From positions 1,426,001 to 1,490,000 of the forward strand of contig NZ_CP109598.1 in the NCBI RefSeq assembly GCF_036327775.1: a stretch of DNA of 64,000 bases, in the 5' to 3' direction. The notes beneath the pieces were generated by a model. It saw nothing but the letters and a program-made list of their open reading frames with translations. It did not search any database and was not told the DNA's origin. The stretch comes from Streptomyces sp. NBC_01498 (GTDB lineage Bacteria; Actinomycetota; Actinomycetes; Streptomycetales; Streptomycetaceae). The first letter of the stretch is position 1; each line of letters opens with the position of its first letter. Made by a program: the position numbers and the translations under genes. Below are positions 17,069-43,302 of the stretch, in pieces.

Positions 17069-19552
17069 GTGTCACGGTTCGACCCGAGGGGGAGGGCGAA
17101 TCGGGCACTGCTGATCGGGGTGTCCGAGTACGAGACATTGCCCAAGGGCAATCTGCCGGGCGTGGCCGAGAACCTCACGGAGCTCTCGGAGGCGCTGAAA
17201 GCGGGCCGGATCTTCGGCGACAAGGAGGTCGTCACCTGTAGTCCCGTGGGGGTGGACGCGTTCACCACCGTGCTCAACAAGGCCGTCGAAGAGGCCGAGG
17301 GCCTGCTGCTGTTCTACTTCGCGGGGCACGGGGCCGTCCCCAGCGGCGGGGACGAGCTGTGGCTCCAGATGCGCAACGCGCACGTCGTCAAGGGCGTCGT
17401 GTTCCAGGGTGCCCAGTCGTGGACCCATGTGCTCAGCACGCTGGCCAGCAGCAAGGCGAAGCAGATCGTCGTCGTTCTCGACTGCTGCCACGCGGGCAAC
17501 GCCGGGAGCGCCTGGGAGGCGCTGGAGCACAAGGGGCGCATCTCACAGCTCATGTGTGTGCAGGCCAACCACGAGATCGGCGCGGGTCCGGGGACGAAGC
17601 CGACCCCCTTCACCGAACAACTCGTGCGGATCCTGAAGGAGGGAGTGGGCAAGCAGGGGGGCGATGTCAGCTTCCGGACCCTGTCGGAGGAGATCCGGGC
17701 GCGCATGTCCAAGCACCGGACGAAGCGCTCCGAGGTGTGGGAGCCGCAGAGCCGCCCCGGCACCTCCGGTACGGACGTACTGCTCGCCACCGACATTCCG
17801 CTCCCGCCACCGCCGTCGCCGCCACCGCTCCCGCGGTGGCGCCGGAAACCGTTCCTCGTCGCCGTGGCCGCGGCGCTGGTGACGGCTCTCGTCCTGGGCG
17901 TGTACTTCCTGACCGCGGTTCCGGGCCCGCCCAGCTGCGCGCCGCCCCTGGAACTGCGGCTGCTCACCGATCCCGACATCGAGCCCACCGTGCGCAAGGC
18001 AGCCGCGTCCTACATGACCTCCGACGCGAACCGTACGAGCGAGGGCTGCCGGCGCAGCGGGATCACGACGTACAGCGCGGGCGCCGCCGACGCCGTCGTG
18101 GCGTTCCGTGACAACTCCACGGCCTGGCAGGAGCCGTCGGACGTCGAGTCGACCGTCAATCCGCAGCGTGACATAGGGGCGCAGCCGGACATCTGGATCC
18201 CGTCCGCCTCGGCGGATGTGCGGCGCGCCGCTTCGAAGAGCGGGCGGGTCGCCGCGTCGATGGGCACGCCCGTCCCGCTGGCTTCCTCGCCGATCGTGCT
18301 CGCCGTCCCGAAGGAGTCCGCGAAACGGCTGCCCGGTCAGCGGGAGGGGCGGAAGCTCGCCGACCTGGTCACGGCGTTCATCGCCGCGGAATCCGGCGCC
18401 CAAGTGCGGCGCGCGGATCCGGAGTTCACCGCCGCCGCCCTGCTGGCCACCGAGGGGCTCTACGGTGCGGCGGGCTCCGGCAAGAACGGCGAGCAGCAGG
18501 TCGCGCACGTGGGGCTGCCCGCGCTCACCGGACGGGACCTGCTCTGCCAACTGCCGGACCTCGAAGGGGAGGTGGACGACCGTACGGCGGCGATCGTGCC
18601 CGAGCATCTGCTCACGACCGGTGTCGACTGCGAGAAGGAGAGACGTGCCCCTCGCGTCGCCCTGTACCCGGCCGACGTGCCGGGCCTCGACCCGGTCTTC
18701 GTCCGGGTGACCTGGAAGGACGCGGATCTGGACGCCAAGGCCAGGAGCGCGGCGGCGGACGGTTTCCGGGAGTGGCTGACCGGCAAGGGCGGGGCCGCGA
18801 TATTCGGCGCGGACGGATTCCGGGGCGCCGTGGACGGTGAGACCGGCGCCGGTGAGGCGAAGGGCCCGTCCGGGGCCGGGGCCGGGACGCTGCCCGATCC
18901 GGACCCGCTCGCCGGACCCGCGACCGGTGAGGAGCTGGACGAGGTCCTCGACACGTACCGCAACGCGAGCGGCCCGGGCCGTGTGCTCTTCCTGCTCGAC
19001 AGCTCCGGCTCGATGCGGAAGTCCTGGGAGGGTCCGAGCGGCGCCCCCGGGATGCTGAAGCAGTCGCTCGCCGGACTCGGCAAGCAGGACGTGTACGGGG
19101 TGTGGGCGGTCGCCGACACGGGCCCCGGGCCGTACACCGAGGTGCTCCGCTTCGGCTCGCACACGAACACGGAGGCGAGGGACAGGATCGACGAGAACGC
19201 GCAGGTGAGGGATGCCGAGGCCGACCCGTACCGGGCGCTCTCCGCCGCCCTCGACGACATGGCGGAGAAAAGTACCGACGACCGGGGTCCCCGGCTGATC
19301 GTCTATCTCACGGACGACGAGGACAACGACCGGCTGACCGGCGCCGGGCTGTCCAGGCTGCTCGCGTCGGCCAAGGACAAGGAGATCCCGGTCGTCGTGG
19401 TGTCGCTGAAGGCCGACGCGTGCCTCAAGGACCGTCCCGATCGGAGGATCGCGGACGCAAGCGGGGGACGCTGCCTCGACGGCACCAGCGGTGACGTCAT
19501 CGCCGCGCTGTCGGACGAGGTCGCCAGGACCGGATCAGGAGACCAGAGATGA
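17069..19552 (+). CDS. membrane-anchored caspase-like protease with solute-binding-like and vWA domains
   Basis: This is an 827-aa multidomain protein. Residues 10-235 form a caspase/metacaspase-like C14 peptidase: catalytic H87 (YFAGHG) and C140 (LDCCHAG). A Pro-rich hinge (PLPPPPSPPPLP) precedes one transmembrane helix (about 261-283), so the remainder should lie outside the membrane. Residues about 290-600 resemble a periplasmic solute-binding protein (IWIPSASADVRRAA, LASSPIVLAVPK, FREWLTGKGGAAIFG). Residues about 637-827 are a von Willebrand A domain with an intact MIDAS (LDSSGSM, about 644-648) and LTDDEDND. An internal protease, a membrane span and an external ligand-sensing module suggest ligand-triggered proteolysis (inference). 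It sits between an EACC1-like gene (4 bp gap) and a lipoprotein gene (4-bp overlap). Confidence 0.85.
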   Translation: MSRFDPRGRANRALLIGVSEYETLPKGNLPGVAENLTELSEALKAGRIFGDKEVVTCSPVGVDAFTTVLNKAVEEAEGLLLFYFAGHGAVPSGGDELWLQMRNAHVVKGVVFQGAQSWTHVLSTLASSKAKQIVVVLDCCHAGNAGSAWEALEHKGRISQLMCVQANHEIGAGPGTKPTPFTEQLVRILKEGVGKQGGDVSFRTLSEEIRARMSKHRTKRSEVWEPQSRPGTSGTDVLLATDIPLPPPPSPPPLPRWRRKPFLVAVAAALVTALVLGVYFLTAVPGPPSCAPPLELRLLTDPDIEPTVRKAAASYMTSDANRTSEGCRRSGITTYSAGAADAVVAFRDNSTAWQEPSDVESTVNPQRDIGAQPDIWIPSASADVRRAASKSGRVAASMGTPVPLASSPIVLAVPKESAKRLPGQREGRKLADLVTAFIAAESGAQVRRADPEFTAAALLATEGLYGAAGSGKNGEQQVAHVGLPALTGRDLLCQLPDLEGEVDDRTAAIVPEHLLTTGVDCEKERRAPRVALYPADVPGLDPVFVRVTWKDADLDAKARSAAADGFREWLTGKGGAAIFGADGFRGAVDGETGAGEAKGPSGAGAGTLPDPDPLAGPATGEELDEVLDTYRNASGPGRVLFLLDSSGSMRKSWEGPSGAPGMLKQSLAGLGKQDVYGVWAVADTGPGPYTEVLRFGSHTNTEARDRIDENAQVRDAEADPYRALSAALDDMAEKSTDDRGPRLIVYLTDDEDNDRLTGAGLSRLLASAKDKEIPVVVVSLKADACLKDRPDRRIADASGGRCLDGTSGDVIAALSDEVARTGSGDQR

Positions 19553-24960: not shown

Positions 24961-25036
24961 AGCCCCAACGGCGGCCCGGGGAGTCCTCACGGAACTCGCG
25001 AAGCGCCTGCGGCCCTGACCGCGGAGCGACGGGTCA

Positions 25037-25074
25037 CGGCTCCGGCCGACGGCACATACCGTCGGCCGGAGCCG
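25037..25074 (-). terminator. terminator of the giant NTPase gene
   Basis: A perfect 16-bp stem (CGGCTCCGGCCGACGG and complement) with loop CACATA lies 15 bp beyond the stop codon at 25089. Confidence 0.75.
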
Positions 25075-25088
25075 TGCGCCGCCCGGGA

Positions 25089-28000
25089 TCAGGCGGGCGG
25101 GGTCAGGCAGCGGCGGAGCAGCCGTTCCAGACGCAGTTGCGTCCCCTCGCGGTCGAACACCTGAAGCGCGTCGAGGAAGCTGACCAGCCAGCGCGCCTCG
25201 TCCTCGGAGTCGATCCGCACCGCCACGGCCGTCACCGCGCTCTCCAGGTCGAACGTGCCGTCCGTGAACTCCTCGTCCAGCGCCCGGTACGCGGTCGCGA
25301 GCAGCCGGTCCGCGTAGACACCGGTCGCCTCGGCGAAGGCACGCGCCTCCACCTGATCCATGACCAGACCGGCCAGGCGCCGCAACACCTCGTCCGGGTC
25401 GCCGAGTTCACCGTGCAGCCGGTGGGCCCGGTCCACCAGGAGCGGCCAGCCGCCGGTGAGTTCGTACAGCCGCTCGAGGCGGTCCTCCGTGTGGAACATC
25501 TCGACCCGCTGCGTCCAGCCCCGCAGGCTGCGCCGGTCGTGACGGCGCAGCACGACAGGCGTGGCCGAGGTGTGTTCGGCGCCCGTCAGCTGGGTACGCC
25601 ACAACTCCAGCTGGTCGGGATCGGTGACCAGCACGACCGCACGGGTCACCCCCGGCGTCACCGGCAGCAGTGTCTCCGCCCAGTCGACGGCCTCCCGGCA
25701 CGCCTCAGGCTTCGCCGGGTAGGTGGCGAAGTCGTGGATGATGACGCGCCGTTCCCGTGGGCGTCCGCCCGTCAGCTCCTGCTTGTAGACCTTCGGGCTG
25801 CCGACGGGGGGCAGAGTCCAGTCGGCGATGCGCCCGGCGATGGTCCGCAGGGTGTTGCCGACGTCCTTCACGCCGGTGGCGAGGGTGCCGAGGACCACCT
25901 TCGTCTGATTGGCCCGTTCGCCCAGCAGATCGTCCAGCTGGGTGATGGTGAGCGGGGCGGACCGGCCGTCGGACAGTTCGGGGCGGCCCTCCTGGACGAT
26001 GCTCTCCTGGAGTTCACAGTCCTGGTCGGCGCGCAGCAGCCGTTCCTCCACCTCGTGCGAGGTGCCGATCATGCGCAGGGCGTTCGGTCCCCGCAGATGC
26101 CAGCCCTGACCGTCGTGGTTGGGCGCGAGGACACCGAGTCCCACCATCTCGGAGAGGTAGGCGCGGAAGCCCTCGGTGTCGAGCTGCTGGAAACCCGCGC
26201 GCCAGAACGTCTCGCACTCCTCCCGCAGTTCGGTGTCGGTCAGCCGCACCTCAAGACCGCGGTGGCGGGCGTGCCGGGCCAGCACGTTGGCGATCACGTC
26301 GTAGCGGTGGTCGAGGCTGAGGGTGTCCTTGAAGGCCGCCGAGATCGCGTCCCGGAGCCCGGAGTCCGACTCCACCGTCTCGATGTCGGAGTCCTCCACG
26401 GTGTACGGGGGTACCGCCACCCCCCGCTTCGCCCGCTTGCGGTGCATGACCTCGACCAGCCGGTGTCCGAACATCTGGAGCAGGAACGGCTGGTACGAGC
26501 AGTAGCCCAGCACCCGGTTGACCAGGTCGAGGTCCTTGAACTCGAAGCCGAGCACCCGCATCGGCTCGACCAGCAGGTCGGCGGCGAACTGCGGGGCGAG
26601 CGGACCGATGACCTTCGGCGTCTGCGCGAGATGGCCGAACGGGCCGTTGCTCGCCAGCTTGGCGAACCGCTGCACCGAGTGGAGCCCGGCGAAGACGACC
26701 TTGGCCCGGTCCTTCGTGTCGGAGCCGAGCCCCTTGAGCCGCTTGGTCTGGTCGAAGCGGGGGGCGTCGGCCTCGAAGAACTGGTCGCACTCGTCCAGCA
26801 GGATCAGCAGCCTTCGGCGTGAGTCCCCCTCCAGCCAGCGCCGGATTCCGGCGCGGACCCGGTCCGAGATGTTCTGCTTCGCCTTCCGGTTCGGCAGCCG
26901 GTCCAGCACCTGGGCGGCGGTCAGTTCCCGGTCCAGCACGCTCCACAGCGCTTCCGGTCCCAACGCGCTGCCCTTGCCGATGTTCTCGTGGTCGAGGTTG
27001 ACGTACACCGCCTGCTGGTAGCCGGGGCGCCGCTCGGCGAACCGCTCCCCGGCGTCCGCGAGCAGGGCCGACTTGCCCAGACCACGGCCGCCGAAGATGA
27101 CCTGCGTGCCGCGCGGGTCGATGATGCTCTGGCGTTCGGCGTCGCGCCCGTAGAACATCTCGCCGCCGATCCGGCCGCGCTTCTCCCGGATGTACGGGTT
27201 GACACCGGAGAACGGCAGCAGAGTCTGGGTCGCCGTGCTGATCTGCCGGTTTCCCCGGGCGGCGAGATAGGCCAGCGCGGCATCGTCCACCACGAGCAGC
27301 GGCTGCAACTGGTCAGATCCGGCGGCGAGTTCGACCCGGGCCTCGGGACTGAGCGTGCCGAAGTAGACGACCAGCAGGCTCGGCCCGGTGGTGTCACGCT
27401 CCGCCAGGCTCATCACGAACTGGGCGGACGGCCGGCCCCAGACCATCAGCACCCGCAGGATGCCGCCCTGTTCCTTGATCTCCGAGCCGAAGGCGGGCAC
27501 CTTCGCCTTGCCGTTGGTCTCCACCTCGGCCTCGAAGAGGCGGTACTCACGCCGACGCGTGTGCGGAGCCCGCTCGTCGGTGGGCCTGGCGCCCTTGGCC
27601 TCGTAGCCCAGCAGCTTGAGCAGCGGCGGAAGCTGGCGCCGCCCGGACACCTCCAGCCGGTCCCGGGGCTCGATCGCGCCCAGCTCGCGCCACGCGTCGA
27701 GCGCGTCGGCGGCGAGTGCCGCCTCGTCGGGGGAGAGCGCGGCGTAGTCCAGTACCGGCAGCGTCGGGTGGGTACCGCCCCTCCGGACGAGCGCGACGAG
27801 CGCCTGGTCGATGCCCTCCGGCAGCCCGCCGGGCACCGCCGGGAAGAACTCGGTCAGATAGGGGTCACCGGTCTCGATCTCCGGAACCTGCTCCCCGATC
27901 TCCAGGAAGTAGACCAGGTCGGCGGCGGTGGCCAGCCCCCCGGTGTCGAGATGGCGCAGTACCTGCGCGCGCTCGGGGGCGGTGGTCTCGAGCGCGTCGA

Positions 28001-31000
28001 GGCGGGCCCTGATCCGGTCGGTGGCCTGCTGTCGGAAGAGCGGCAGGTCGCCCCGTACGGTGTCGAGCGCCCTGCGTACGTCGACCAGGTCGGGTGTGTC
28101 GGCGCCCTCCAGCCGGTTGCGGGCGTCCGCCAGCATCTCCTGGAGCCGCAGGTCCTGGTCGTCGGTCACGGCGCCGTCGGCCTGGGCGCGGTGCAGTTCG
28201 GAGACGAGTTCCTCCCGCGTGCGCCGCAGTTCGGCACGCCGTACGGCCTCCCGCTCCTCGATCTCGTCGAGCGGCGGCGGGGTGAATTCCCCGGCGCGGG
28301 TGGCGGGCAGCAGTTCCAGCGCGGCCAGCTCGATGATCGTACGGGCGGCGGCGAAGGCGTCGTGCGCGAGCCGTTCGGCCAGTGCCTCCGCCCAGTTCCG
28401 CCCGACGGCGACGACGAGCTGGTCCAGCGGCGCCGTCTCGCCCCGTCGGTCGCACACCTTGAGCAGTTCGATGTCCAGCAGGATCTCCGGGGCGACGGAG
28501 CCGCCGGGGCGCGCGCTCCCGGTGTCGCCGGCCAGCAGGGCGAACAGCTCCTCCATCGAGTCGCGGGCCGCCCACGCCGTCGCGGTGGCGAACGTGCCAG
28601 AGCGGCGGGCCAGTTGCGCCAGTTCGCCGAGGACCGCCTCCTTCCCGTCCAGCAGGGACCGGCGCAGCGCGCCGATGTCCTTGACCGCCCGGTCACCGTC
28701 GGAGCGCTTGCGGTGGTGGGCGGCCTCCGCCATCAGGCACCACTCCTTGAGCAGGCCGGTCACCCGCTCCACGAGATGCACCAGGTCCTGGCGCCCGGAG
28801 CCCTGGAGCGGCTTGCCGCTGGACCCTCGGTGCCGGCGGTCCATGCGGTCGATCTCGTTGTTGATCTCACCCAGTTTGGACAGGCGTTCGCTCTGCTCGC
28901 GTACCCGGTTCACCGTCTCGCGGTCGTCCTCGGCCACGCTCGTCAGCAGTTCGCCGAGCATGCCGTCCTCGGCCAGCCACCGCTTGGCTATCTCCGTCGC
29001 CCGCGCGAAGCGCAGCTTCGGCGGCGCCAGCAGGGCGTGGCACTGTTCGCGCAGCTCCCGCAGCCGGGCCTCGGTCCCGGCGGCGTCGGCGATGACGACC
29101 AGCGGCGAGGCGATCATCAGCGCCCCGCTCAGCGCCCGGTCGGCCACGGCCGCCGCGACCTCTCCGAGCCGTTCGGGGAGCCGGGGCACCAGCACCCTGA
29201 GCTGGGCTCCCGCCACGTGGTCGCCGGTGATCAGGGCCGTACGCAACAGGGCGGGCAGCAGCAGGAGTTCGCCGCCCTCGGCGTCCCGGCCGCCGTGACC
29301 GTCGTACTGCTGGAGAAGGTCGGCGGTCAGCCGGGCACCCTGGCTGTCACCCGAGGTGAGCAGCGCGGCGGCACCGGCCAGACGCAGCGCCGCCACCTGG
29401 GCCTCGGGGTGCGCGGCGGCGCGCGCGACGTGGTGGGCGAGGCCGAACCGGCGTTCCACGATGAGCCGGACGAGGGCCTGTTCGACGGAGGACCCGGCCA
29501 CGCGGGTGGCCTCGGTGGCGGCGGCGGTCTCGGTCCGGGCGGGACGCTCCGCCTCGGGCACGGTGGCGTCCGCGGCCGTCGCGCCGGACGGCACCGGGTC
29601 GGACGACACGGCCTCGACCTGGGGCGCAGGCTCGACCGCCGCCTCCGCCTCGGGCTCGACCGGCGGGGTGGAGGGTGTGACCTCGGCCTCGGCCCTGGCC
29701 TCGCTGTCGTGAACCTGGTCGCCGCCCTCACCGCTCTTGACCTGCTCCGCCGACGGGGGCGCGGTCTCCCCGTTCACCACGACGGGGGTGGCGGCTTCGG
29801 CCTCCGGCCGGGCCCGGGAGGCGGTCTTCTCCCCGGGGGGCGTCTCCGTCTCCTCCGAGAGGTGCCCGACCGTTCCGGTCCCAGCCGGTGCCGGAACGGA
29901 CTCCGCCACCCCCGTCAAGGTCAGTTGCGGTGCCAGGGCCGCCGCCGAGGCGTACTCCGGCCACACTCCGACGACGTGCCCCATCAGGGAAACGATCTCC
30001 TTCGCGGCGTCCTCCCGGCCGCCCAGCCGGACGAGCCGCGCCACTGACGCCAGCGCGTCGCTCTCGTGGCGCTGCGGCTCCTCCCACGTCGCCGACGCCA
30101 GAAGGCGCCCGGCCGCGGCCCGCACCGCCTCGGCCGCCGGGGCGGCGGGGCTGTCCGGCCCGGCCGCGACATGCAGCAGTTCCTCCAGCGTCCGGCGGAC
30201 CGGCAGGTCACGTTCGCGCGCCTCCCGGTGCGCCCGCGCGGCGGAGACCAGGTCCGCGAGGCGCGGCGGTACGTCCCCGAGTCCCGCCGCACGGAACACC
30301 GCCTCCGCGCGTGTGAACTCGGCGCCCAGCGCGGTCAGCGGAGCGAGGTGCTCCTCCCCCGGCGCACGGCCGTCCAGGACCGCTTCGGTCACCCTCGCCG
30401 CGGCCTCCCGGGCCTCGGCCACGGCGGACTCCAGCGCTCGGCAGGCCGCCTCCGGATCGGCCGCCTCCGGATCCGACCGCCGGAGCGCGGGGGCGGTCTC
30501 CGGGACGGTCACGGACGGGCCGTCGTGATCGCCGGTCCGTCCGGCGTCCATGTCCCGTCCGGGCGACGCGGCACGCTCCGCCGTCCCGCCGAAGACGAAA
30601 TCGGGGTGCGCCGCCGCGACCGACCGAGCCGCGTCGAGGACGGCGTCGAACCGTGCCTTCTCCTTCTCGTCGGCCGCTGCCGCGAACCAGTCCTGGTCTC
30701 CGGCCCACAGCAGGATGTGCGCGTCGCCGACGGACGCGTTGGACCAGACGTACACGGTGATCCGGATCAGCGTCTCGCCCCACCGGGAGACGGGTTCCGG
30801 CACCGTCACGCCGTCCGGCGAGAAGATGTACGCGGTCACCTGGCTGATAACGGTGCTGGTGAGGCGCAGAAGCCCACAGGTGCACGCGTTCTGCGTCGCC
30901 TCGCGACGCAGCCGCGCGAGCACGTCCCGGCACAGGGCGGGCCCGGCCCGGCGCGGCGCGGACATCCGGATTCCCAGGCCCCTGAGCAGCTCTTGCCGCT

Positions 31001-31178
31001 CCTTGGGCCGCAGGGAATTGAAGGCCAGTTCCACCATGCCGACGGTCAGGTCGTTGAGGGCGGTGACGGCGGGCTGTTCCAGCGCGTTGAGCGCGGCGGC
31101 CAGGGGTTCGAGGCTCTGGGCCGTGACGCCCGGCGGGGACAGCGGTGGCCCCGTCAGGACGTGGTAGCGGTCTTGCAT
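25089..31178 (-). CDS. 2029-aa STAND-like P-loop NTPase, predicted conflict-system protein
   Basis: The start is ATG 31178. Residues 1-215 form an unrecognised conserved-looking domain (VGMVELAFNSLRPKERQELL, HILLWAGDQDWF). Residues about 430-555 are a disordered Pro/Glu/Ala/Thr linker. A long helical region follows (about 560-1100), with charged coiled-coil-like stretches such as EEREAVRRAELRRTREEL. Before the NTPase comes the block LLPFSGVNPYI / GGEMFYGRDAE. Walker A is FGGRGLGKSAL (about residue 1365) and Walker B is LLILLDECDQF (about 1460), within a STAND/ORC-like ATPase, followed by a winged-helix-like region (PFLLQMFGHRLVEVM) and a C-terminal domain of about 330 residues. No signal peptide or membrane span is seen. 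It lies 88 bp downstream of a 757-aa unknown gene on the same strand, and the pair ends at a strong terminator. A regulated NTPase switch in defence is an inference. Confidence 0.85.
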   Translation of the reverse strand: MQDRYHVLTGPPLSPPGVTAQSLEPLAAALNALEQPAVTALNDLTVGMVELAFNSLRPKERQELLRGLGIRMSAPRRAGPALCRDVLARLRREATQNACTCGLLRLTSTVISQVTAYIFSPDGVTVPEPVSRWGETLIRITVYVWSNASVGDAHILLWAGDQDWFAAAADEKEKARFDAVLDAARSVAAAHPDFVFGGTAERAASPGRDMDAGRTGDHDGPSVTVPETAPALRRSDPEAADPEAACRALESAVAEAREAAARVTEAVLDGRAPGEEHLAPLTALGAEFTRAEAVFRAAGLGDVPPRLADLVSAARAHREARERDLPVRRTLEELLHVAAGPDSPAAPAAEAVRAAAGRLLASATWEEPQRHESDALASVARLVRLGGREDAAKEIVSLMGHVVGVWPEYASAAALAPQLTLTGVAESVPAPAGTGTVGHLSEETETPPGEKTASRARPEAEAATPVVVNGETAPPSAEQVKSGEGGDQVHDSEARAEAEVTPSTPPVEPEAEAAVEPAPQVEAVSSDPVPSGATAADATVPEAERPARTETAAATEATRVAGSSVEQALVRLIVERRFGLAHHVARAAAHPEAQVAALRLAGAAALLTSGDSQGARLTADLLQQYDGHGGRDAEGGELLLLPALLRTALITGDHVAGAQLRVLVPRLPERLGEVAAAVADRALSGALMIASPLVVIADAAGTEARLRELREQCHALLAPPKLRFARATEIAKRWLAEDGMLGELLTSVAEDDRETVNRVREQSERLSKLGEINNEIDRMDRRHRGSSGKPLQGSGRQDLVHLVERVTGLLKEWCLMAEAAHHRKRSDGDRAVKDIGALRRSLLDGKEAVLGELAQLARRSGTFATATAWAARDSMEELFALLAGDTGSARPGGSVAPEILLDIELLKVCDRRGETAPLDQLVVAVGRNWAEALAERLAHDAFAAARTIIELAALELLPATRAGEFTPPPLDEIEEREAVRRAELRRTREELVSELHRAQADGAVTDDQDLRLQEMLADARNRLEGADTPDLVDVRRALDTVRGDLPLFRQQATDRIRARLDALETTAPERAQVLRHLDTGGLATAADLVYFLEIGEQVPEIETGDPYLTEFFPAVPGGLPEGIDQALVALVRRGGTHPTLPVLDYAALSPDEAALAADALDAWRELGAIEPRDRLEVSGRRQLPPLLKLLGYEAKGARPTDERAPHTRRREYRLFEAEVETNGKAKVPAFGSEIKEQGGILRVLMVWGRPSAQFVMSLAERDTTGPSLLVVYFGTLSPEARVELAAGSDQLQPLLVVDDAALAYLAARGNRQISTATQTLLPFSGVNPYIREKRGRIGGEMFYGRDAERQSIIDPRGTQVIFGGRGLGKSALLADAGERFAERRPGYQQAVYVNLDHENIGKGSALGPEALWSVLDRELTAAQVLDRLPNRKAKQNISDRVRAGIRRWLEGDSRRRLLILLDECDQFFEADAPRFDQTKRLKGLGSDTKDRAKVVFAGLHSVQRFAKLASNGPFGHLAQTPKVIGPLAPQFAADLLVEPMRVLGFEFKDLDLVNRVLGYCSYQPFLLQMFGHRLVEVMHRKRAKRGVAVPPYTVEDSDIETVESDSGLRDAISAAFKDTLSLDHRYDVIANVLARHARHRGLEVRLTDTELREECETFWRAGFQQLDTEGFRAYLSEMVGLGVLAPNHDGQGWHLRGPNALRMIGTSHEVEERLLRADQDCELQESIVQEGRPELSDGRSAPLTITQLDDLLGERANQTKVVLGTLATGVKDVGNTLRTIAGRIADWTLPPVGSPKVYKQELTGGRPRERRVIIHDFATYPAKPEACREAVDWAETLLPVTPGVTRAVVLVTDPDQLELWRTQLTGAEHTSATPVVLRRHDRRSLRGWTQRVEMFHTEDRLERLYELTGGWPLLVDRAHRLHGELGDPDEVLRRLAGLVMDQVEARAFAEATGVYADRLLATAYRALDEEFTDGTFDLESAVTAVAVRIDSEDEARWLVSFLDALQVFDREGTQLRLERLLRRCLTPPA

Positions 31179-31266
31179 GTACGCGAACTCCGATTCTCTC
31201 GCTGGTGGTACGGAACGGGCTCCCTCGACGGCGAGGGAGCCGTGCGGTGCGGCAGGTGCGCCCGGG

Positions 31267-33540
31267 TCAGTGACCCCGGGTGTGCTCGGTGACGAAGGTG
31301 TAGCCGTCGGGCAGCTCCCAGCCGTCCGCCTTGCCGAGCCGACGGCAGTGCTCGCGGAAGGCGACCCGCTGCGCGTCGCTGGGTGACCGGCCCGGCAGCA
31401 GCCTGCGCAGATGACCGGGGACGAACTGGACGGCCTGGAGCGGTTCGGCGACCAGGCCCGTGCTGCCCCAGGGGCGTATCAGCCGGTGCCTGGCCGGTCG
31501 ATAACGGACGAGCGGTATGACCACCTGGGCCTCGCGGGCGGGGAAGTGCGGCTGCCCCCGGGCGTCCCGGCTGCCCCGGGCCCGCTCCAGCAGGCGCCGC
31601 GCGAGGAGTTCCGCCACGGCCGCCTCCAGCGCCGCGGTCTGCGCCGGTGCCCGGCGGGGCCCGTACACCACGGCGGGCAGCACGGAGGGGTCCAGCAGGG
31701 CGTGCCCGTCGAGGGTGAGCAGTCCACAGCGGCGTACGGCGCGCATCACCAACTGCCGAGGCGCGAGCCCGGCGGCCGTGTCGCCCTGCCGGCCGCTGCC
31801 GGGTACGTCGTCACGGGTGAGGACCTGGGGGTCGTAACAATGCCCGATCACCCGTTCGTCGACCCGCACCGGCTCGTCCAGCGGCACCGTGGCCACGTGG
31901 ATCAGCGCCCCGCCGCGACGCCACCGGCACTCGGTGATCAGGCCGGGGAAGAAGTCGGAGGGCCAGGCCACCGGCGCCAACCGGCCGCTTTCCCGGCCGA
32001 GTTCGGCGACGCCTTCGTGGGTCGTCCGCTCCCCGTCGTGATCGAGCACGAGGCAAAGGCGGAGGGCCGGAAGTTCGGGTGCGACCTCCGGAGGGAGCGG
32101 GAACCAGCCGCCGACGAGGTGGGCCAGCCGCAGCGGCGCGCGCCAGACGATCTCGTCGGCGTCGCTCCGCAGCAGCCTGCCCGCCCCGAGGGACGGATCG
32201 TCGGCGGGGGCCATGTCGACCGGCTCGGCGTCCGGCTCCTCGGCCACGGCCACGGTGGACAGCCAGCCGTGTCCGGCGGGGGAGAGTGGATCTCCTGGAG
32301 TTTCCGCGTCACCGGGATGGTGGGACCGCCACACCCCGCCGCCCTCGAAGGCGTCGTCCAGCGCGATCCGGGTGCCGTTGTCGAACAGCCCGTACCGACC
32401 GACCTGTCGTAAGGCGTCGGCGACCGCCAGGTTGGCCCGGCACACCGCCGTGGCGTAGCCGACTCCCTTGAGCGGATCAGCCGCGCCGGGGAAGCCACGG
32501 AGCCCGGGACCGGTCGCCGTGTACACGGCGACCGGTGAGCCGAGGCCGTGGCGCCGCCGATTCGGGGTCGCCGCGCGTTTCAGCGCCGCCACGAACGACG
32601 CGAGATCACCGCCGCCGAGCGGTCCGGTGTCACGCGCACTGTCCGCGAGCACGGTGCGGGACATCGCGTAATGCCCCCATGTACGTGCCCCGGGAAGCGA
32701 GTTGAGGACTCCGCGCACCGTGTCGAGGAGACCGAACAGCCCGGCGCGCAGCGTGTTCTCGTCCGTACCGCCGACCAGTTCGGCGAGGGAGACCGGCACG
32801 AAGGGGCTGAGCAACTGCTCCCGGGCCGTCGTCAGCAGATGTTCCGCGTACGCTGTCGGCTCGTCCCGCCGGGCGGCTTCCGGGGACGGGTGACAGACGT
32901 CGACGACCACATGACCGTCCCCGTTGATCCAGCGGCGGCGGGTGCGTAATCGGTGGAGCTGCGCCGGGGACGGGCTCAGCGCGGGACCGAAGGCGTGCAG
33001 GTCCGGGACCAGTAACTCCCTGCGCCGGGGCCGGGGATCCTGCCCCGGCCGGCCCGGCCCCTCGGCCCCCACGGGCGCCCCCGACACCCAAGGGGGAACA
33101 TCTCCCAGTGAGCCCAGCTCCGGGTGGGCGCCCTCCCGGTGGACGATCTCGGCATACAGCGGATCGGACCCGGTGACGACGCACACCATGGCCCCGACGG
33201 GAAGCACGGGGGCCGGACCGCCGAGAGTGATGACGGGAAAGTCGTCGAGCCGCAGCGGGCTGGCGCCGTAGCCGTCACCGCCGATGTCGAACCCGAAGTA
33301 GACGGCGTTGAAGGCGACGTCGGTGTGCACCGGCGCCCGGCGGGCCGAGACGACCGCGTCGAGGTACCGCCCCAGCCGCTCCCGCTCCGGGCCGGGCACG
33401 GAGTCGTACCCCCGCGTCATGGCCGGGGTCAGAAGGGCCTGGTCACCGTACGGGTCGGGCACCGGCAAGGAATCCGCGCACGGCGGCGACATCTCCCGCC
33501 GCTCGTCGGCCAGTTCCGAAACATACGGGTCCCCACCCAT
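31267..33540 (-). CDS. 757-aa protein of unknown function, partner of the giant NTPase
   Basis: The start is ATG 33540, with GGAGG 5 bp upstream; the same frame stays open to 34182, but that part is low-complexity. I do not recognise any family. Visible features are a soluble acidic protein, an N-terminal block (VAFNAVYFGFDIGGDGYGASP), and a mid-region with repeated beta-strand/loop elements (PVAVYTATGPGLRGFPGAAD, YGLFDNGTRIALDDAFEGGG). A C-terminal helical region holds Arg clusters (VIPLVRYRPARHRLIRPWG), ending in WELPDGYTFVTEHTRGH. It is co-directional with, and 88 bp upstream of, the 2029-aa NTPase, suggesting co-expression and a shared function. Confidence 0.75.
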   Translation of the reverse strand: MGGDPYVSELADERREMSPPCADSLPVPDPYGDQALLTPAMTRGYDSVPGPERERLGRYLDAVVSARRAPVHTDVAFNAVYFGFDIGGDGYGASPLRLDDFPVITLGGPAPVLPVGAMVCVVTGSDPLYAEIVHREGAHPELGSLGDVPPWVSGAPVGAEGPGRPGQDPRPRRRELLVPDLHAFGPALSPSPAQLHRLRTRRRWINGDGHVVVDVCHPSPEAARRDEPTAYAEHLLTTAREQLLSPFVPVSLAELVGGTDENTLRAGLFGLLDTVRGVLNSLPGARTWGHYAMSRTVLADSARDTGPLGGGDLASFVAALKRAATPNRRRHGLGSPVAVYTATGPGLRGFPGAADPLKGVGYATAVCRANLAVADALRQVGRYGLFDNGTRIALDDAFEGGGVWRSHHPGDAETPGDPLSPAGHGWLSTVAVAEEPDAEPVDMAPADDPSLGAGRLLRSDADEIVWRAPLRLAHLVGGWFPLPPEVAPELPALRLCLVLDHDGERTTHEGVAELGRESGRLAPVAWPSDFFPGLITECRWRRGGALIHVATVPLDEPVRVDERVIGHCYDPQVLTRDDVPGSGRQGDTAAGLAPRQLVMRAVRRCGLLTLDGHALLDPSVLPAVVYGPRRAPAQTAALEAAVAELLARRLLERARGSRDARGQPHFPAREAQVVIPLVRYRPARHRLIRPWGSTGLVAEPLQAVQFVPGHLRRLLPGRSPSDAQRVAFREHCRRLGKADGWELPDGYTFVTEHTRGH

Positions 33541-34160
33541 GTCACCTCCACCACACGGGGGGCCACCTCGACCCGGTGCGCGGTTGTTTGCGCAGACTAT
33601 GTCCGCGCGTGGTGCTCCCGTGGCACTTTTGACACTTCGCGACCGGTTGACACCGACCCACACCGCTGGGATCGCTCCCCGCCGCAGCATAAGCAGCCGT
33701 GACGGACCGGCTGCGGAACGGACAGGACGCACGAACTCCTCGCCGTGCTCGGTGAACTGGATCCCACCGCCAGACTGGAAGTGTCCGCGCCTGGCGGCCC
33801 GACGAGCGCGGGCGGCAAAAGGCGGCACGTCCGCCGAGACGGTCGGACTGCTGCTGAGCGCGGCGCGCGAAGCGGGACGAGGGCGGTGTGCGACGGTCCA
33901 ACTGGCGCCGCTGCTCAACCAGCAGATGGAGCTCGCTCCGGACGGAAAGCGGCCGGGACGTGCTCCGGCCCAGTGACGTGCCTCCCTCCACAGCGGCGTC
34001 GTCGCGGAACTCCTGGATACGGGTGACGCGGACCTGGGCTCGCGGGCAGCCGGCCGGCAGAAGGGCATCGACGCCCAGATACCGCGTGCGGTCAGGGAGT
34101 TACTGGACGAACTCGGACTGCCGGAACTCGAACCACTGGATCCGTCCGCCCGCTCAGCCT
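33541..34160 (+). pseudogene. decayed coding region upstream of the NTPase pair
   Basis: Two TTGACA-like boxes (around 33631 and 33651) face a plus-strand region whose coding signal jumps frames: RTHELLAVLGELDPTARLEV (from about 33730), GGTSAETVGLLLSAAREAG to a stop at 33976, then GVVAELLDTGDADLGSRAAG ... VRELLDELGLPELEPLD to about 34155. This is a broken gene; the family was not recognised. Nothing else was seen in this gap. Confidence 0.35.
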
Positions 34161-34735
34161 CCGGACAGACTGCGCACGACATACGTCATGTGCTGAACGT
34201 TTCCCGCCCACAGCCACTCGGCCGGCCCGCCCGTGTCCTTGCCGGTCGAGAGTGGCCCGTGCGCGCAGTCGCTCAGCCATCTCTCGCCCTCTCCCGTACC
34301 CGTTCCCCGGAACTCGGGCAGTTCGATGATCTGCCGGGCCATGCCCCGATTGACGGCGATCCGGTCGTCCCCGCGAGTCAGCACCTTGAACAGAAGGTAT
34401 GAACTCTCGGTCGTGTAGCGCAGCACACCCCAGGGCGGTCCGCCCTTCCTCGTCACTCCCAGAGCCTGTGCCAGGGCACTGGGATGCTGCACGCCGTAGT
34501 CGCCGTAACGGAGCATCGAGGCATAGGCCCTGCCCATGGCACGCACCTCGTGCCACATACGCCACTCCGCCCGGGGCCCCTCCCACGGACTGTCCTCCAG
34601 CATGTCGGCGGTGGCCCGGGGAACACCCCCTCCCAGGAGAACGGCGCTCCGCCAGACCGTCAGGGGTATGAGTGCGTCGAGGGCCCGCAGCGCCTCCTTC
34701 CCGGCGTCGGGCCGGTCATCGAGCACGGCTTCCAT
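34154..34735 (-). pseudogene. truncated phage T4 beta-protein family gene (C-terminal part)
   Basis: This 193-aa reading frame opens at ATG 34735 without a ribosome-binding site. It contains blocks typical of the second half of 'beta family' proteins: WEGPRAEWRMWHEVR, YASMLRYGDYGVQHP, GVLRYTTESSYLLFKVL and GGPAEWLWAGNVQHMTYVV. Full-length relatives are about 350 residues, so the N-terminal half is missing. The upstream sequence does not restore it. Beta-family genes commonly lie in phage or defence neighbourhoods. Treat it as a remnant, although expression of the fragment cannot be excluded. Confidence 0.5.
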
Positions 34736-35431: not shown

Positions 35432-35541
35432 TGGTGCGGGAGGGAGCCGTACGGTCAGGAACCGCGTACGGCTCCGGGGATCGTCAACGGGATCCGGGCG
35501 CGGTGTCCTTGGCCCGGAAGGGCGGTCGCGGGGACGTGCCG

Positions 35542-41227: not shown

Positions 41228-41533
41228 GTGCCGAACGAAGACCGCATCACCGTTGACTTCGCTACTTTGCAGCAGCTTTCGGGTGACCTGGAAGGCATCC
41301 TCCGTGTCCTCAACGCGAAGCTGGACACGTTGTACGAGCGAACCGCCAAAGCCGTGCTGAGCTGGGACGGTGAGGCACGCGAAGCGTTCATCGACGAGCT
41401 GGACAAGTGGAGCCACTCCGCCGACGACCTCAAGGCAACCCAGGCTTGGCTCCACGAGGTCGTGGTGAAGGGGCACCTGCACTACGCCGCGGCCAACAGG
41501 TCGGTACTCGAAGGCTGGGGAGGCGGTGCCTGA
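41228..41533 (+). CDS. WXG100-family protein, toxin partner
   Basis: This 101-aa protein starts at GTG 41228 (AGGGGG 10 bp upstream; TTG/GTG codons at 41198-41203 are alternatives). The helix-turn-helix contains the W-x-G-like turn VLSWDGEAREAF; helix 1 is FATLQQLSGDLEGILRVLNA and helix 2 is FIDELDKWSHSADDLKATQA. It is translationally coupled to the toxin gene (TGATG, 1-bp overlap), indicating it is the secretion chaperone or partner of that toxin. Confidence 0.85.
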   Translation: MPNEDRITVDFATLQQLSGDLEGILRVLNAKLDTLYERTAKAVLSWDGEAREAFIDELDKWSHSADDLKATQAWLHEVVVKGHLHYAAANRSVLEGWGGGA

Positions 41534-43302
41534 TGGCAGGCCCTTCCTCACCCGCCCAGCCGACGGGTGGTAGCGGCACCATCGACGTCAAGCCGAGCGA
41601 CCTCTGGTCGGTCTCCGGTCGGGTCGCCGCGCAGCAGGACTTCCTGGTACGCGGCGCCAGGACGCTTCTCGAGGAGCTGGGCAAGTACCCCGACGCGGGC
41701 GGTGCCGGCGCCGAGGCCGAGAAATTCTCCCGGGCTTACAAGAAGATCGGCAATCGCTGGCTGGAGGTCTGGGGCCGGTCCGTGCTCAGCGTCGGCGGTG
41801 TCGCGGTCGGGTTCACCGAGACGGCCAACGCCTACACCCGGGCGGACGCGGCGGCCCACCCCAAGCCGGGGAAGACGGCCGAGCAGCGCCCGCGGCCCGC
41901 GGTCATCGACAAGGACCCGAACTTCGATTCGGTACCCACTATCAAGTGGGGCGACGACGACGGCGGCGACGACATCCTGCGCGGCCTGATGGAGGGCATA
42001 CCCGAAATCGTCCGGGACGTCCTCCAGCCACTGTGCAAGAACGTGTTCCGGATCGGAAGGGTGGCGGACGTCCACCCCTTCCCGCAACAGCACTACCTCA
42101 ACTCGCTCTGTCACAGCTGGATGAACGTATCCATCACCGCGACGTTGGGGGCGGACCAGCTCACCCAGGCGGTGGGTGCCGTCACCAACCACCAGCAGGC
42201 GGAGTGGGAAGCCGCGATGCGGACCTTCTGCAGCGCCCTGTGGGGAGGGACGGCGTGGGGGCAGCAGCGGCACGGCTACCAATGGGGGCAGACCGCCAAC
42301 TCAGGTCCGGGCACGCCGCGGGTTCCCACGGGCAGTGAGCCGGTTCTGGCCGTGCTGAAGGACACTGCGGACAGAATCGCCACGGTCCTGCGCGAGTACG
42401 CCGAGGCCGCCGTCGACCTCAACCGCGATGTCGCGGACGAGCTCCACCGCGCCATGTGGAAAGCCGCCAAGGAGATCATCGAAGATCTCGCCAAGTCCAA
42501 GGACCCCAAGAGCCTCCTCGGCACCGTCACCTCCGTGATCGGCAAGGGCGCGGGCCTGATCCTGTCGTTCGACGTCAAGACGGTACTGAACATCGACACG
42601 AGCAAGCTGAACGGGATCGTCGACAAGTACACCGGCATTCTGGGGGGCCTCACCACGCGCATGGAGGCGCTGAGGGAGCCGCTGGACGAGGCATTCCGGA
42701 GCGCACCCAAGTTCGAGGCCGGCGTCGCCCGTTCGCACGGCTTCGGCACCCGGGCCCTGGAGGAATTCAAGGACTCGAAGGTCTGGCTGAAGGTAGATTC
42801 GAACGGCAACTACAACCTGAACCTCGCCGCCAACGAATACATGGCGAACGGCCATACTTTGGACAAGCACGTCGGCAAGACGGACGAACAGCTGGCGCAG
42901 CGCCTGCGTGACCAGCAGTCGGGCGGCCCGACGGCGGCCTGGCCACATGGAAAGCCGATGCCCAGCGGCTCCTCCGCCTTCCCGGACTACCAACGCGCCG
43001 AGGAATTGACCGAGCGCAACCTCAACACGAACAAGGCCGCCATCGAGGCATGGATCAAGGGGCCTCCGCCGGCCTCCGACGGCGACGTCCAGTCGTTCTA
43101 CGACACGGTGCCGAGCGGCGAGACCAGTGGCCGCAGCGTGAGCAAGCAGCCGCTGGACCCCAACGACCCGCTGTCCGGATACAAGCAGGGCGGTCTGAAT
43201 GCCCAGGCATACGACGTGAGTGGCGTCGACACGCGTATCCGCTACGACAGCAGCCGCAACCCTCCGTTCACTGTCATGACGTCGATGCCCTCCAAGACCT
43301 AG
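41533..43302 (+). CDS. polymorphic toxin with C-terminal RNase A-like (CdiA-CT) domain
   Basis: This is a 589-aa protein. The N-terminal 330 residues are a helical secretion/trafficking region (IDVKPSDLWSVSGRVAAQQD, WLEVWGRSVLSVGGVAVGFTE), suited to ESX export with the upstream WXG100 partner. The C-terminal 165 residues match the bacterial RNase A-like toxin domain: GHTLDKHVGKTDEQLAQRL (presumed catalytic H/K), SSAFPDYQRAEELTERNLN, KAAIEAWIKG, and the final strand TRIRYDSSRNPPFTVMTSMP. Such toxins cleave RNA in competitors. The next gene is a candidate immunity protein 26 bp downstream. Confidence 0.85.
   Translation: MAGPSSPAQPTGGSGTIDVKPSDLWSVSGRVAAQQDFLVRGARTLLEELGKYPDAGGAGAEAEKFSRAYKKIGNRWLEVWGRSVLSVGGVAVGFTETANAYTRADAAAHPKPGKTAEQRPRPAVIDKDPNFDSVPTIKWGDDDGGDDILRGLMEGIPEIVRDVLQPLCKNVFRIGRVADVHPFPQQHYLNSLCHSWMNVSITATLGADQLTQAVGAVTNHQQAEWEAAMRTFCSALWGGTAWGQQRHGYQWGQTANSGPGTPRVPTGSEPVLAVLKDTADRIATVLREYAEAAVDLNRDVADELHRAMWKAAKEIIEDLAKSKDPKSLLGTVTSVIGKGAGLILSFDVKTVLNIDTSKLNGIVDKYTGILGGLTTRMEALREPLDEAFRSAPKFEAGVARSHGFGTRALEEFKDSKVWLKVDSNGNYNLNLAANEYMANGHTLDKHVGKTDEQLAQRLRDQQSGGPTAAWPHGKPMPSGSSAFPDYQRAEELTERNLNTNKAAIEAWIKGPPPASDGDVQSFYDTVPSGETSGRSVSKQPLDPNDPLSGYKQGGLNAQAYDVSGVDTRIRYDSSRNPPFTVMTSMPSKT

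Follow-up and report, generated by a model that had tools for sequence, protein, structure and literature searches.

The 64,000-nucleotide stretch of Streptomyces sp. NBC_01498 analysed here (the window), which spans 1.43-1.49 Mb on the single contig of a 7.27-Mb genome, carries two adjacent genes, encoding proteins of 757 (P1) and 2029 (P2) residues, that form an accessory, compact, mobile and functionally constrained unit. The unit is probably anti-invader and belongs within the STAND-based conflict systems; the more specific idea that it is a mobile innate-immunity unit, in which nucleic acid recognised by an exchangeable reader would prompt the STAND switch to set off an antiviral response, we hold to be about evenly balanced between right and wrong. 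The two genes seem to be a reduced version of a three-gene system that includes a double helicase. Both open reading frames, their common direction and the 88 bp between them (31179-31266) are as described in a first-pass annotation of the window, and both are genuine genes, since full-length homologues exist for each; the ATG start of P1 is supported by the MGG start that many relatives share. Close homologues are mostly annotated 'hypothetical protein', and some 'NUP-1', 'ATP-binding protein' or similar.

Among 150 genomes of the same genus, P1 was found in 14 and both proteins in 13 (the window's own counted in each case), and a 561-residue part of P2 in 25. The two genes are thus neither mostly apart, as just one of the 14 genomes with P1 lacks P2, nor universal, the two outcomes that the annotation had thought telling. 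One genome (G026) holds a P1-like remnant without P2, and where P2 occurs without P1 it is a truncated close copy (G042, G078) or a distant or weak relative (the other ten). Because this loose first look scored at most seven candidates per genome for P1 and nine for P2, the count of 13 may be low. Across the phylum, P1 matched five of 396 genomes (the window's own counted), in three of 236 genera. In 47 of the 48 loci retrieved from named genomes with P1 as the query, a P2 match lies directly downstream of P1, and in the last the contig ends. We relied on tblastn for these loci, because a simple gene caller missed genes of lower third-position GC content; L059 and L085 come from the same genome, as do L065 and L083. 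Some copies are damaged: L061 and L035 are broken, L026, L058 and L065 have frame breaks, and L036 and L069 are cut by contig ends.

The two proteins have diverged together (r 0.989 over 44 loci), also within the 33 loci of the window's type, type A (r 0.892; as high in 0 of 2000 permutations of a Mantel test). In 43 of 44 loci the genes are separated by 26-227 nt, and in the other they overlap by 10 nt. Their flanks are mostly unshared, and any flanking family other than P1 and P2 is confined to 10 or fewer of 49 loci, which bears out the island-like, variable setting that had been proposed. Both genes also occur in plasmid records, with 68-74% identity in three, two of which belong to a single strain, and 28-35% in another two. 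In three relatives (G032, G004 and G012) homology to the right flank ends at window positions 35521, 35476 and 35593, respectively, and P1 and P2 are absent from the next 14-15 kb beyond these breakpoints; G032 has the pair at another site. No relative with both flanks together, that is, an empty site, was seen among the matches listed.

The predicted model of P2 residues 1040-2029 (mean pLDDT 83.3) argues strongly for a STAND/ORC-Cdc6 NTPase fold in the C-terminal region, in keeping with the STAND-like NTPase annotated there. Foldseek listed for it the STAND/ORC-Cdc6 AAA+ NTPases 2qen and 2fna, together with CED-4 and plant NLR entries, and the alignment with 2qen covers model residues 288-667, placing a winged helix after the NTPase in the model. 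The Walker A and B motifs lie where they had been placed, near residues 1365 and 1460 (Table 1); an alignment of 26 sequences shows no variation at K1369, D1462 or E1463, and both GGRxLGKS and T[GS]GWP occur in 44 of the 44 P2 proteins checked. What follows the NTPase in the model is limited to helices and a second STAND-like domain of short length. The N- and C-terminal regions had been called novel. P2 gave weak P-loop hits below cut-off in Pfam, PADLOC and NCBIfam and nothing above it or with a convincing E-value; its core is not unique, being shared by a large family whose N-termini have been exchanged (see below). A PDB sequence search with P2 alone gave no match. Profile hits in the PDB that we did not use were Pizza6 designs over 33 positions and the TPR sensor 6mfv (at the P-loop stretch, E 0.0049) for the C-terminal part, and Afp11 (E 0.058) for the N-terminal part.

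P1 matched nothing in the Pfam, NCBIfam and PADLOC profile libraries or in phage records, nothing in a viral fold library at E <=0.001 (best 0.11), and nothing in the PDB by sequence, either alone or as a profile. To this extent it is of no recognised family, as annotated, yet its AlphaFold model (mean pLDDT 85.7, pTM 0.60) contains B3-like and winged-helix folds with modest scores, from which P1 is predicted, with modest confidence, to bind DNA through a B3-like barrel and winged helices. An HEPN-motif-like R67-x4-H72 is invariant in 54 of 54 P1 homologues; we do not claim an HEPN identity, as the model puts this motif in a loop between two helices of the winged-helix-like region. Two further identities were rejected, namely a divergent pPIWI-RE protein (hhalign probability 0.12%) and a homologue of the HEPN-motif partner of P1-less relatives described below (no profile match).

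A helicase of about 1900 residues (C23) precedes P1 in L054, L057-L060, L077, L078, L082, L084 and L085. In profile searches C23 matches DinG-like and DpdF/RecQ-like helicases, and in L078 also a DEDDh exonuclease (E 2.5e-12); its divergence follows that of P1 (r 0.967, 36 pairs) and of P2 (r 0.963, 21 pairs). The helicase-less state requires three changes on the P1 tree (3-3 across bootstraps). On the P2 tree, in which several long branches come together and the branching across the family is uncertain, type A forms one clade and the helicase-bearing type requires four changes. Absence of the helicase was judged from the fetched stretch, which reaches at most 10 kb upstream; for seven type-A genomes, the window's own included, the whole genome was searched for an unlinked copy, and all seven lack a full-length C23 and have RecQ-type partial matches only. 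From the trees and the co-divergence, the simplest reading is an ancestral three-gene system that lost its helicase repeatedly, also in the window's clade, although the helicase may instead have been gained repeatedly.

Several copies have defence genes beside them. PADLOC placed Wadjet JetA-D alongside the helicase-less, two-gene locus L022, and JetA and JetB homologues occur in four further helicase-less loci (the two-gene loci L041, L046 and L062, and L067). The three-gene loci L058 and L085 have pPIWI-RE and its DinG alongside, and SngB/SngC (Shango) and DrmB (DISARM) lie upstream of the three-gene loci L060 and L057, respectively. In a rough control, 140 of 177 proteins from type-A flanks were compared with 140 of 183 proteins from 20 same-genus regions placed by hand in chromosome arms. 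At E <=1e-10 the flanks hit 130 PADLOC families and the control 38, figures that count families rather than genes, with an imperfect one-per-family flank filter (JetC entered twice). Among the 25 families listed per set, those of the flanks include JetC (2), type I methyltransferase (2), mad2 (4), mad3 (3), HEC-05 (2), PDC-M55C (2), PD-T4-6 (2) and mad6 (2), whereas those of the control are mostly PD-T4-6 models, plus mad6, C3a189 and MkoA, with at most five proteins each. We take PD-T4-6, mad6, C3a189 and MkoA to be kinase-like. Rough and hand-picked as the control is, it supports a defence setting of the pair. The resemblance to NTPase-based defence switches suggested in the annotation is seen in the STAND fold and in the neighbours of some copies, and a defence role itself is what we infer.

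The pairing, the co-divergence, the patchy distribution and the three-gene relatives are observed directly. From these, together with the unshared flanks and plasmid copies, the defence neighbours and the PADLOC contrast, the predicted STAND and B3-like folds, and the co-divergence of C23, we infer a mobile immunity function with DNA sensing, switching and defence, as well as the loss of the helicase. In the proposed mechanism, P1 would read DNA by means of its B3-like domain and winged helices, acting with P2 as an ATP-dependent STAND switch whose reader in the window's lineage would be P1. Recognition of foreign or abnormal DNA would cause ATP binding or exchange by P2, followed by a conformational change or assembly that would trigger the output. 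In the three-gene form this output would most simply be the DEDDh-exonuclease/DinG/RecQ-like helicase encoded by the first gene of the operon; in the two-gene form it would have to reside in the N-terminal 420 residues of P2, in P1 or in a host factor. If true, this would add to Streptomyces a compact, laboratory-testable immune system tied to a family of thousands of proteins.

A search of plasmid records with P2 gave 29 records in total, among them distant relatives in other phyla that have in common with P2 its residues from about 565 to 1920. By sequence comparison, this core is a member of a large and apparently unnamed family with swapped N-termini, for which no dedicated model was seen in the profile libraries searched. 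A 3256-residue protein of Azospirillum oryzae has an Argonaute-like module of pPIWI_RE_X, MID and RNaseH domains fused ahead of the core, and a 3100-residue Bradyrhizobium protein is homologous to it along both parts. Fusions of pPIWI-RE to the STAND core, followed by a gene with an HEPN-like motif, are found at L092:1140-10910, L093:1026-10328 and L102:2068-12252; the gene after the fusion is AAA_33 by Pfam in L092 and L093, and the L102 fusion was assigned from annotation and alignment. On a Brasilonema plasmid (L094:4164-11033) the sigma-70 regions 1.2, 2, 3 and 4 are fused ahead of a P2-like core. A search with this core found 2854 proteins at E <=1e-10 among 6222 candidates; among the best 120 of the 2854, those listed (P0243-P0362), the sigma-70 part is present in 59 and GGRxLGK in all 120, so that the fusion is recurrent and no single assembly error. 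Cyanobacterial fusions are already labelled sigma factors in public annotation.

The sigma-70 domains of these 59 listed relatives would fit a transcription-controlling family, and the predicted folds of P1 are DNA-binding; the pair could accordingly be read as a transcription or developmental regulator with no defence role, P1 being a promoter-binding protein and P2 a signalling ATPase of the STAND type. We consider this unlikely in view of the unshared flanks, the patchy presence, the plasmid copies, the defence neighbours of some copies and the exonuclease-helicase linked to the three-gene type.

STAND/ORC-like ATPases frequently load helicases, and P1 and P2 might do so with the double helicase, at DNA ends or at stalled forks, in a restriction- or repair-like processing of DNA, the two-gene form using host RecQ/DinG or nucleases. 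The adjacency and co-divergence of C23 and the separate RecQ-type hit in the window's genome agree with such a role, but the pair persists without full-length C23 in seven of the seven type-A genomes tested and its accessory distribution is atypical for repair, and we regard this reading as quite unlikely.

The surroundings of 17 relatives without P1 were examined (L070-L076, L092-L094 and L096-L102). In 13 of them the next gene encodes a protein of 377-576 residues with an R-N-x-x-A/S-H-like (HEPN-like) motif, its R and H being present in 13 of the 13 aligned partners and its N in 12. At a limit of E 1, Pfam HEPN_Swt1 (Swt1-like HEPN) was reported for four of the 13, not significantly (best E 0.017). 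The distant Streptomyces relatives of P2 in L070-L076, which have no P1, are accompanied by an HEPN-motif partner of 477-576 residues, and a TldD gene adjoins the L073 copy. On an Agrobacterium plasmid (L101:4458-16658) the P2-like ATPase and its HEPN-motif partner are followed by hypothetical, ThiF-family and patatin-like genes. A selfish or toxin-antitoxin-like module, with P1 restraining a toxic P2 and neither protecting against phage, would be consistent with a mobile, co-diverging two-gene unit and with a recurrent HEPN-like partner (13 of 13 aligned), but is very unlikely given the great size, the three-gene relatives and the lack of any toxin domain by profile in P1 or P2 (Pfam, NCBIfam and PADLOC).

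Within the immunity reading, we tentatively suggest, with more doubt than confidence, an unnamed superfamily of giant STAND switches in which an exchangeable reader would set what is sensed: sigma-70 for transcription, pPIWI-RE for guided or R-loop recognition, and the DNA-binding B3/winged-helix P1. Each reader would feed a common core that acts through helicase-nuclease or HEPN outputs. If true, an immune switch with a fused sigma factor would be able to monitor transcription directly, and the sigma-70-STAND and PIWI-STAND fusions would pose the testable question whether transcription initiation or R-loops are direct triggers of bacterial STAND immunity.

Unlike STAND/ORC-Cdc6 NTPases, P2 has its NTPase close to the C-terminus, preceded by about 1300 residues and followed by a second STAND-like domain that lacks a P-loop. 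P2 resembles Avs in being a large STAND protein, and the Avs structure 8dgc is in the Foldseek list at rank 29, with low coverage (TMq 0.22). Avs proteins have an N-terminal effector, a central STAND region and sensor repeats after the NTPase, whereas P2 has a long core ahead of the NTPase and a separate P1. The pPIWI-RE module (REase, DinG and pPIWI-RE; accessible part of PMC3702460) adjoins the three-gene form in L058 and L085, and pPIWI-RE is fused to the P2-like core in Azospirillum and Bradyrhizobium; in contrast, Pfam finds no DinG or PIWI domain in P1, P2 or the 10 scanned window neighbours. ORC/Cdc6 ATPases, inactive STAND domains and winged helix-turn-helix proteins recur in BREX and BREX-related systems, according to the available portion of PMC12839542, yet no match to PglZ, BrxC or BrxX/PglX was found in P1 or P2 (Pfam, NCBIfam, PADLOC) or in the 10 window neighbours (Pfam only). 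The C-terminal helicase half of C23 matches DpdF models (E 1.1e-62), but among the matches listed (for C23, the best 25) only Dpd helicase models appear (DpdF, and DpdJ for the Shango helicase) and no DpdA; the DpdF matches of C23 may be just a RecQ-type helicase signal. For HerA/FtsK capture systems, PMC10853773 describes fusions of ORC/Cdc6 proteins to STAND NTPases and, in some DndH, an inserted helix-turn-helix related to sigma factors; P1 and P2 differ in matching no HerA/FtsK translocase (Pfam, NCBIfam, PADLOC), and the P2-core relatives in having the whole sigma-70 set of regions. ECF sigma genes occur near TRADD-N systems (PMC8195603, in part). No description of the pair, the helicase triad or the sigma-70- or pPIWI-RE-STAND fusions was found in the accessible parts of the mainly open literature searched (including PMC12839542, PMC10853773, PMC11981726, PMC12458937, PMC3702460, PMC8195603 and PMC7159879). 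The annotation knew of no described system with this pair, which agrees with that literature; the pair resembles a reduced three-gene system.

Table 1. Features of the P1-P2 unit, in window coordinates.
Feature	Coordinates	Strand	Basis
P1 gene, 757 residues	31267..33540	(-)	ATG start; open reading frame call
P1 residues 33-300, split winged-helix-like region with beta-rich insert	32641..33444	(-)	model, weak
P1 residues 458-575, B3-like DNA-binding pseudo-barrel	31816..32169	(-)	predicted
P1 residues 594-684, winged helix	31489..31761	(-)	predicted, weak
10-bp perfect hairpin in P1-P2 gap	31218..31241	no strand	repeat search
P2 gene, 2029 residues, STAND NTPase	25089..31178	(-)	ATG start; open reading frame call
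P2 residues 1-420, N-terminal module	29919..31178	(-)	alignments; sequence search of the PDB gave nothing convincing
P2 residues 425-565, low-complexity linker	29484..29906	(-)	alignment, by inspection
P2 residues 566-1130, start of family-wide core, probably helical	27789..29483	(-)	alignment; model begins at residue 1040
P2 residues 1189-1309, small alpha/beta domain preceding NTPase	27252..27614	(-)	model
P2 residues 1325-1717, STAND/ORC-Cdc6 NTPase with winged helix	26028..27206	(-)	predicted model
Walker A GGRGLGKS, P2 residues 1363-1370	27069..27092	(-)	sequence, alignment
Walker B region, P2 residues 1458-1465 (D1462, E1463)	26784..26807	(-)	sequence, alignment
P2 residues 1757-1929, second STAND-like alpha/beta domain, P-loop-less, TGGWP end	25392..25910	(-)	secondary structure; assigned by inspection
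Inverted repeat closing the unit just past the P2 stop, without T-tract	25030..25081	no strand	arms 25030-25052 / 25059-25081

The arms of the repeat after P2 are 91% complementary, with 16 bp perfect by eye. The 16-bp terminator of the annotation is hence a real inverted repeat, but one that the intrinsic-terminator scan does not list because it has no T-tract. Upstream of P1, the annotated beta-protein fragment was recovered at 34154-34735 as the C-terminal half of a decayed Beta_protein gene (PF14350 profile positions 167-342 of 342 only). An FecCD remnant, also annotated as flanking the pair, was not seen among 10 window proteins in the Pfam scan, beyond which no search was aimed at FecCD. 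Elsewhere in the window, Pfam assigns a predicted caspase (Peptidase_C14) together with solute-binding and VWA domains to one 827-residue protein (17069-19552), and a CdiA-type RNase A domain (PF18431) to the C-terminus of a 589-residue protein (41533-43302).
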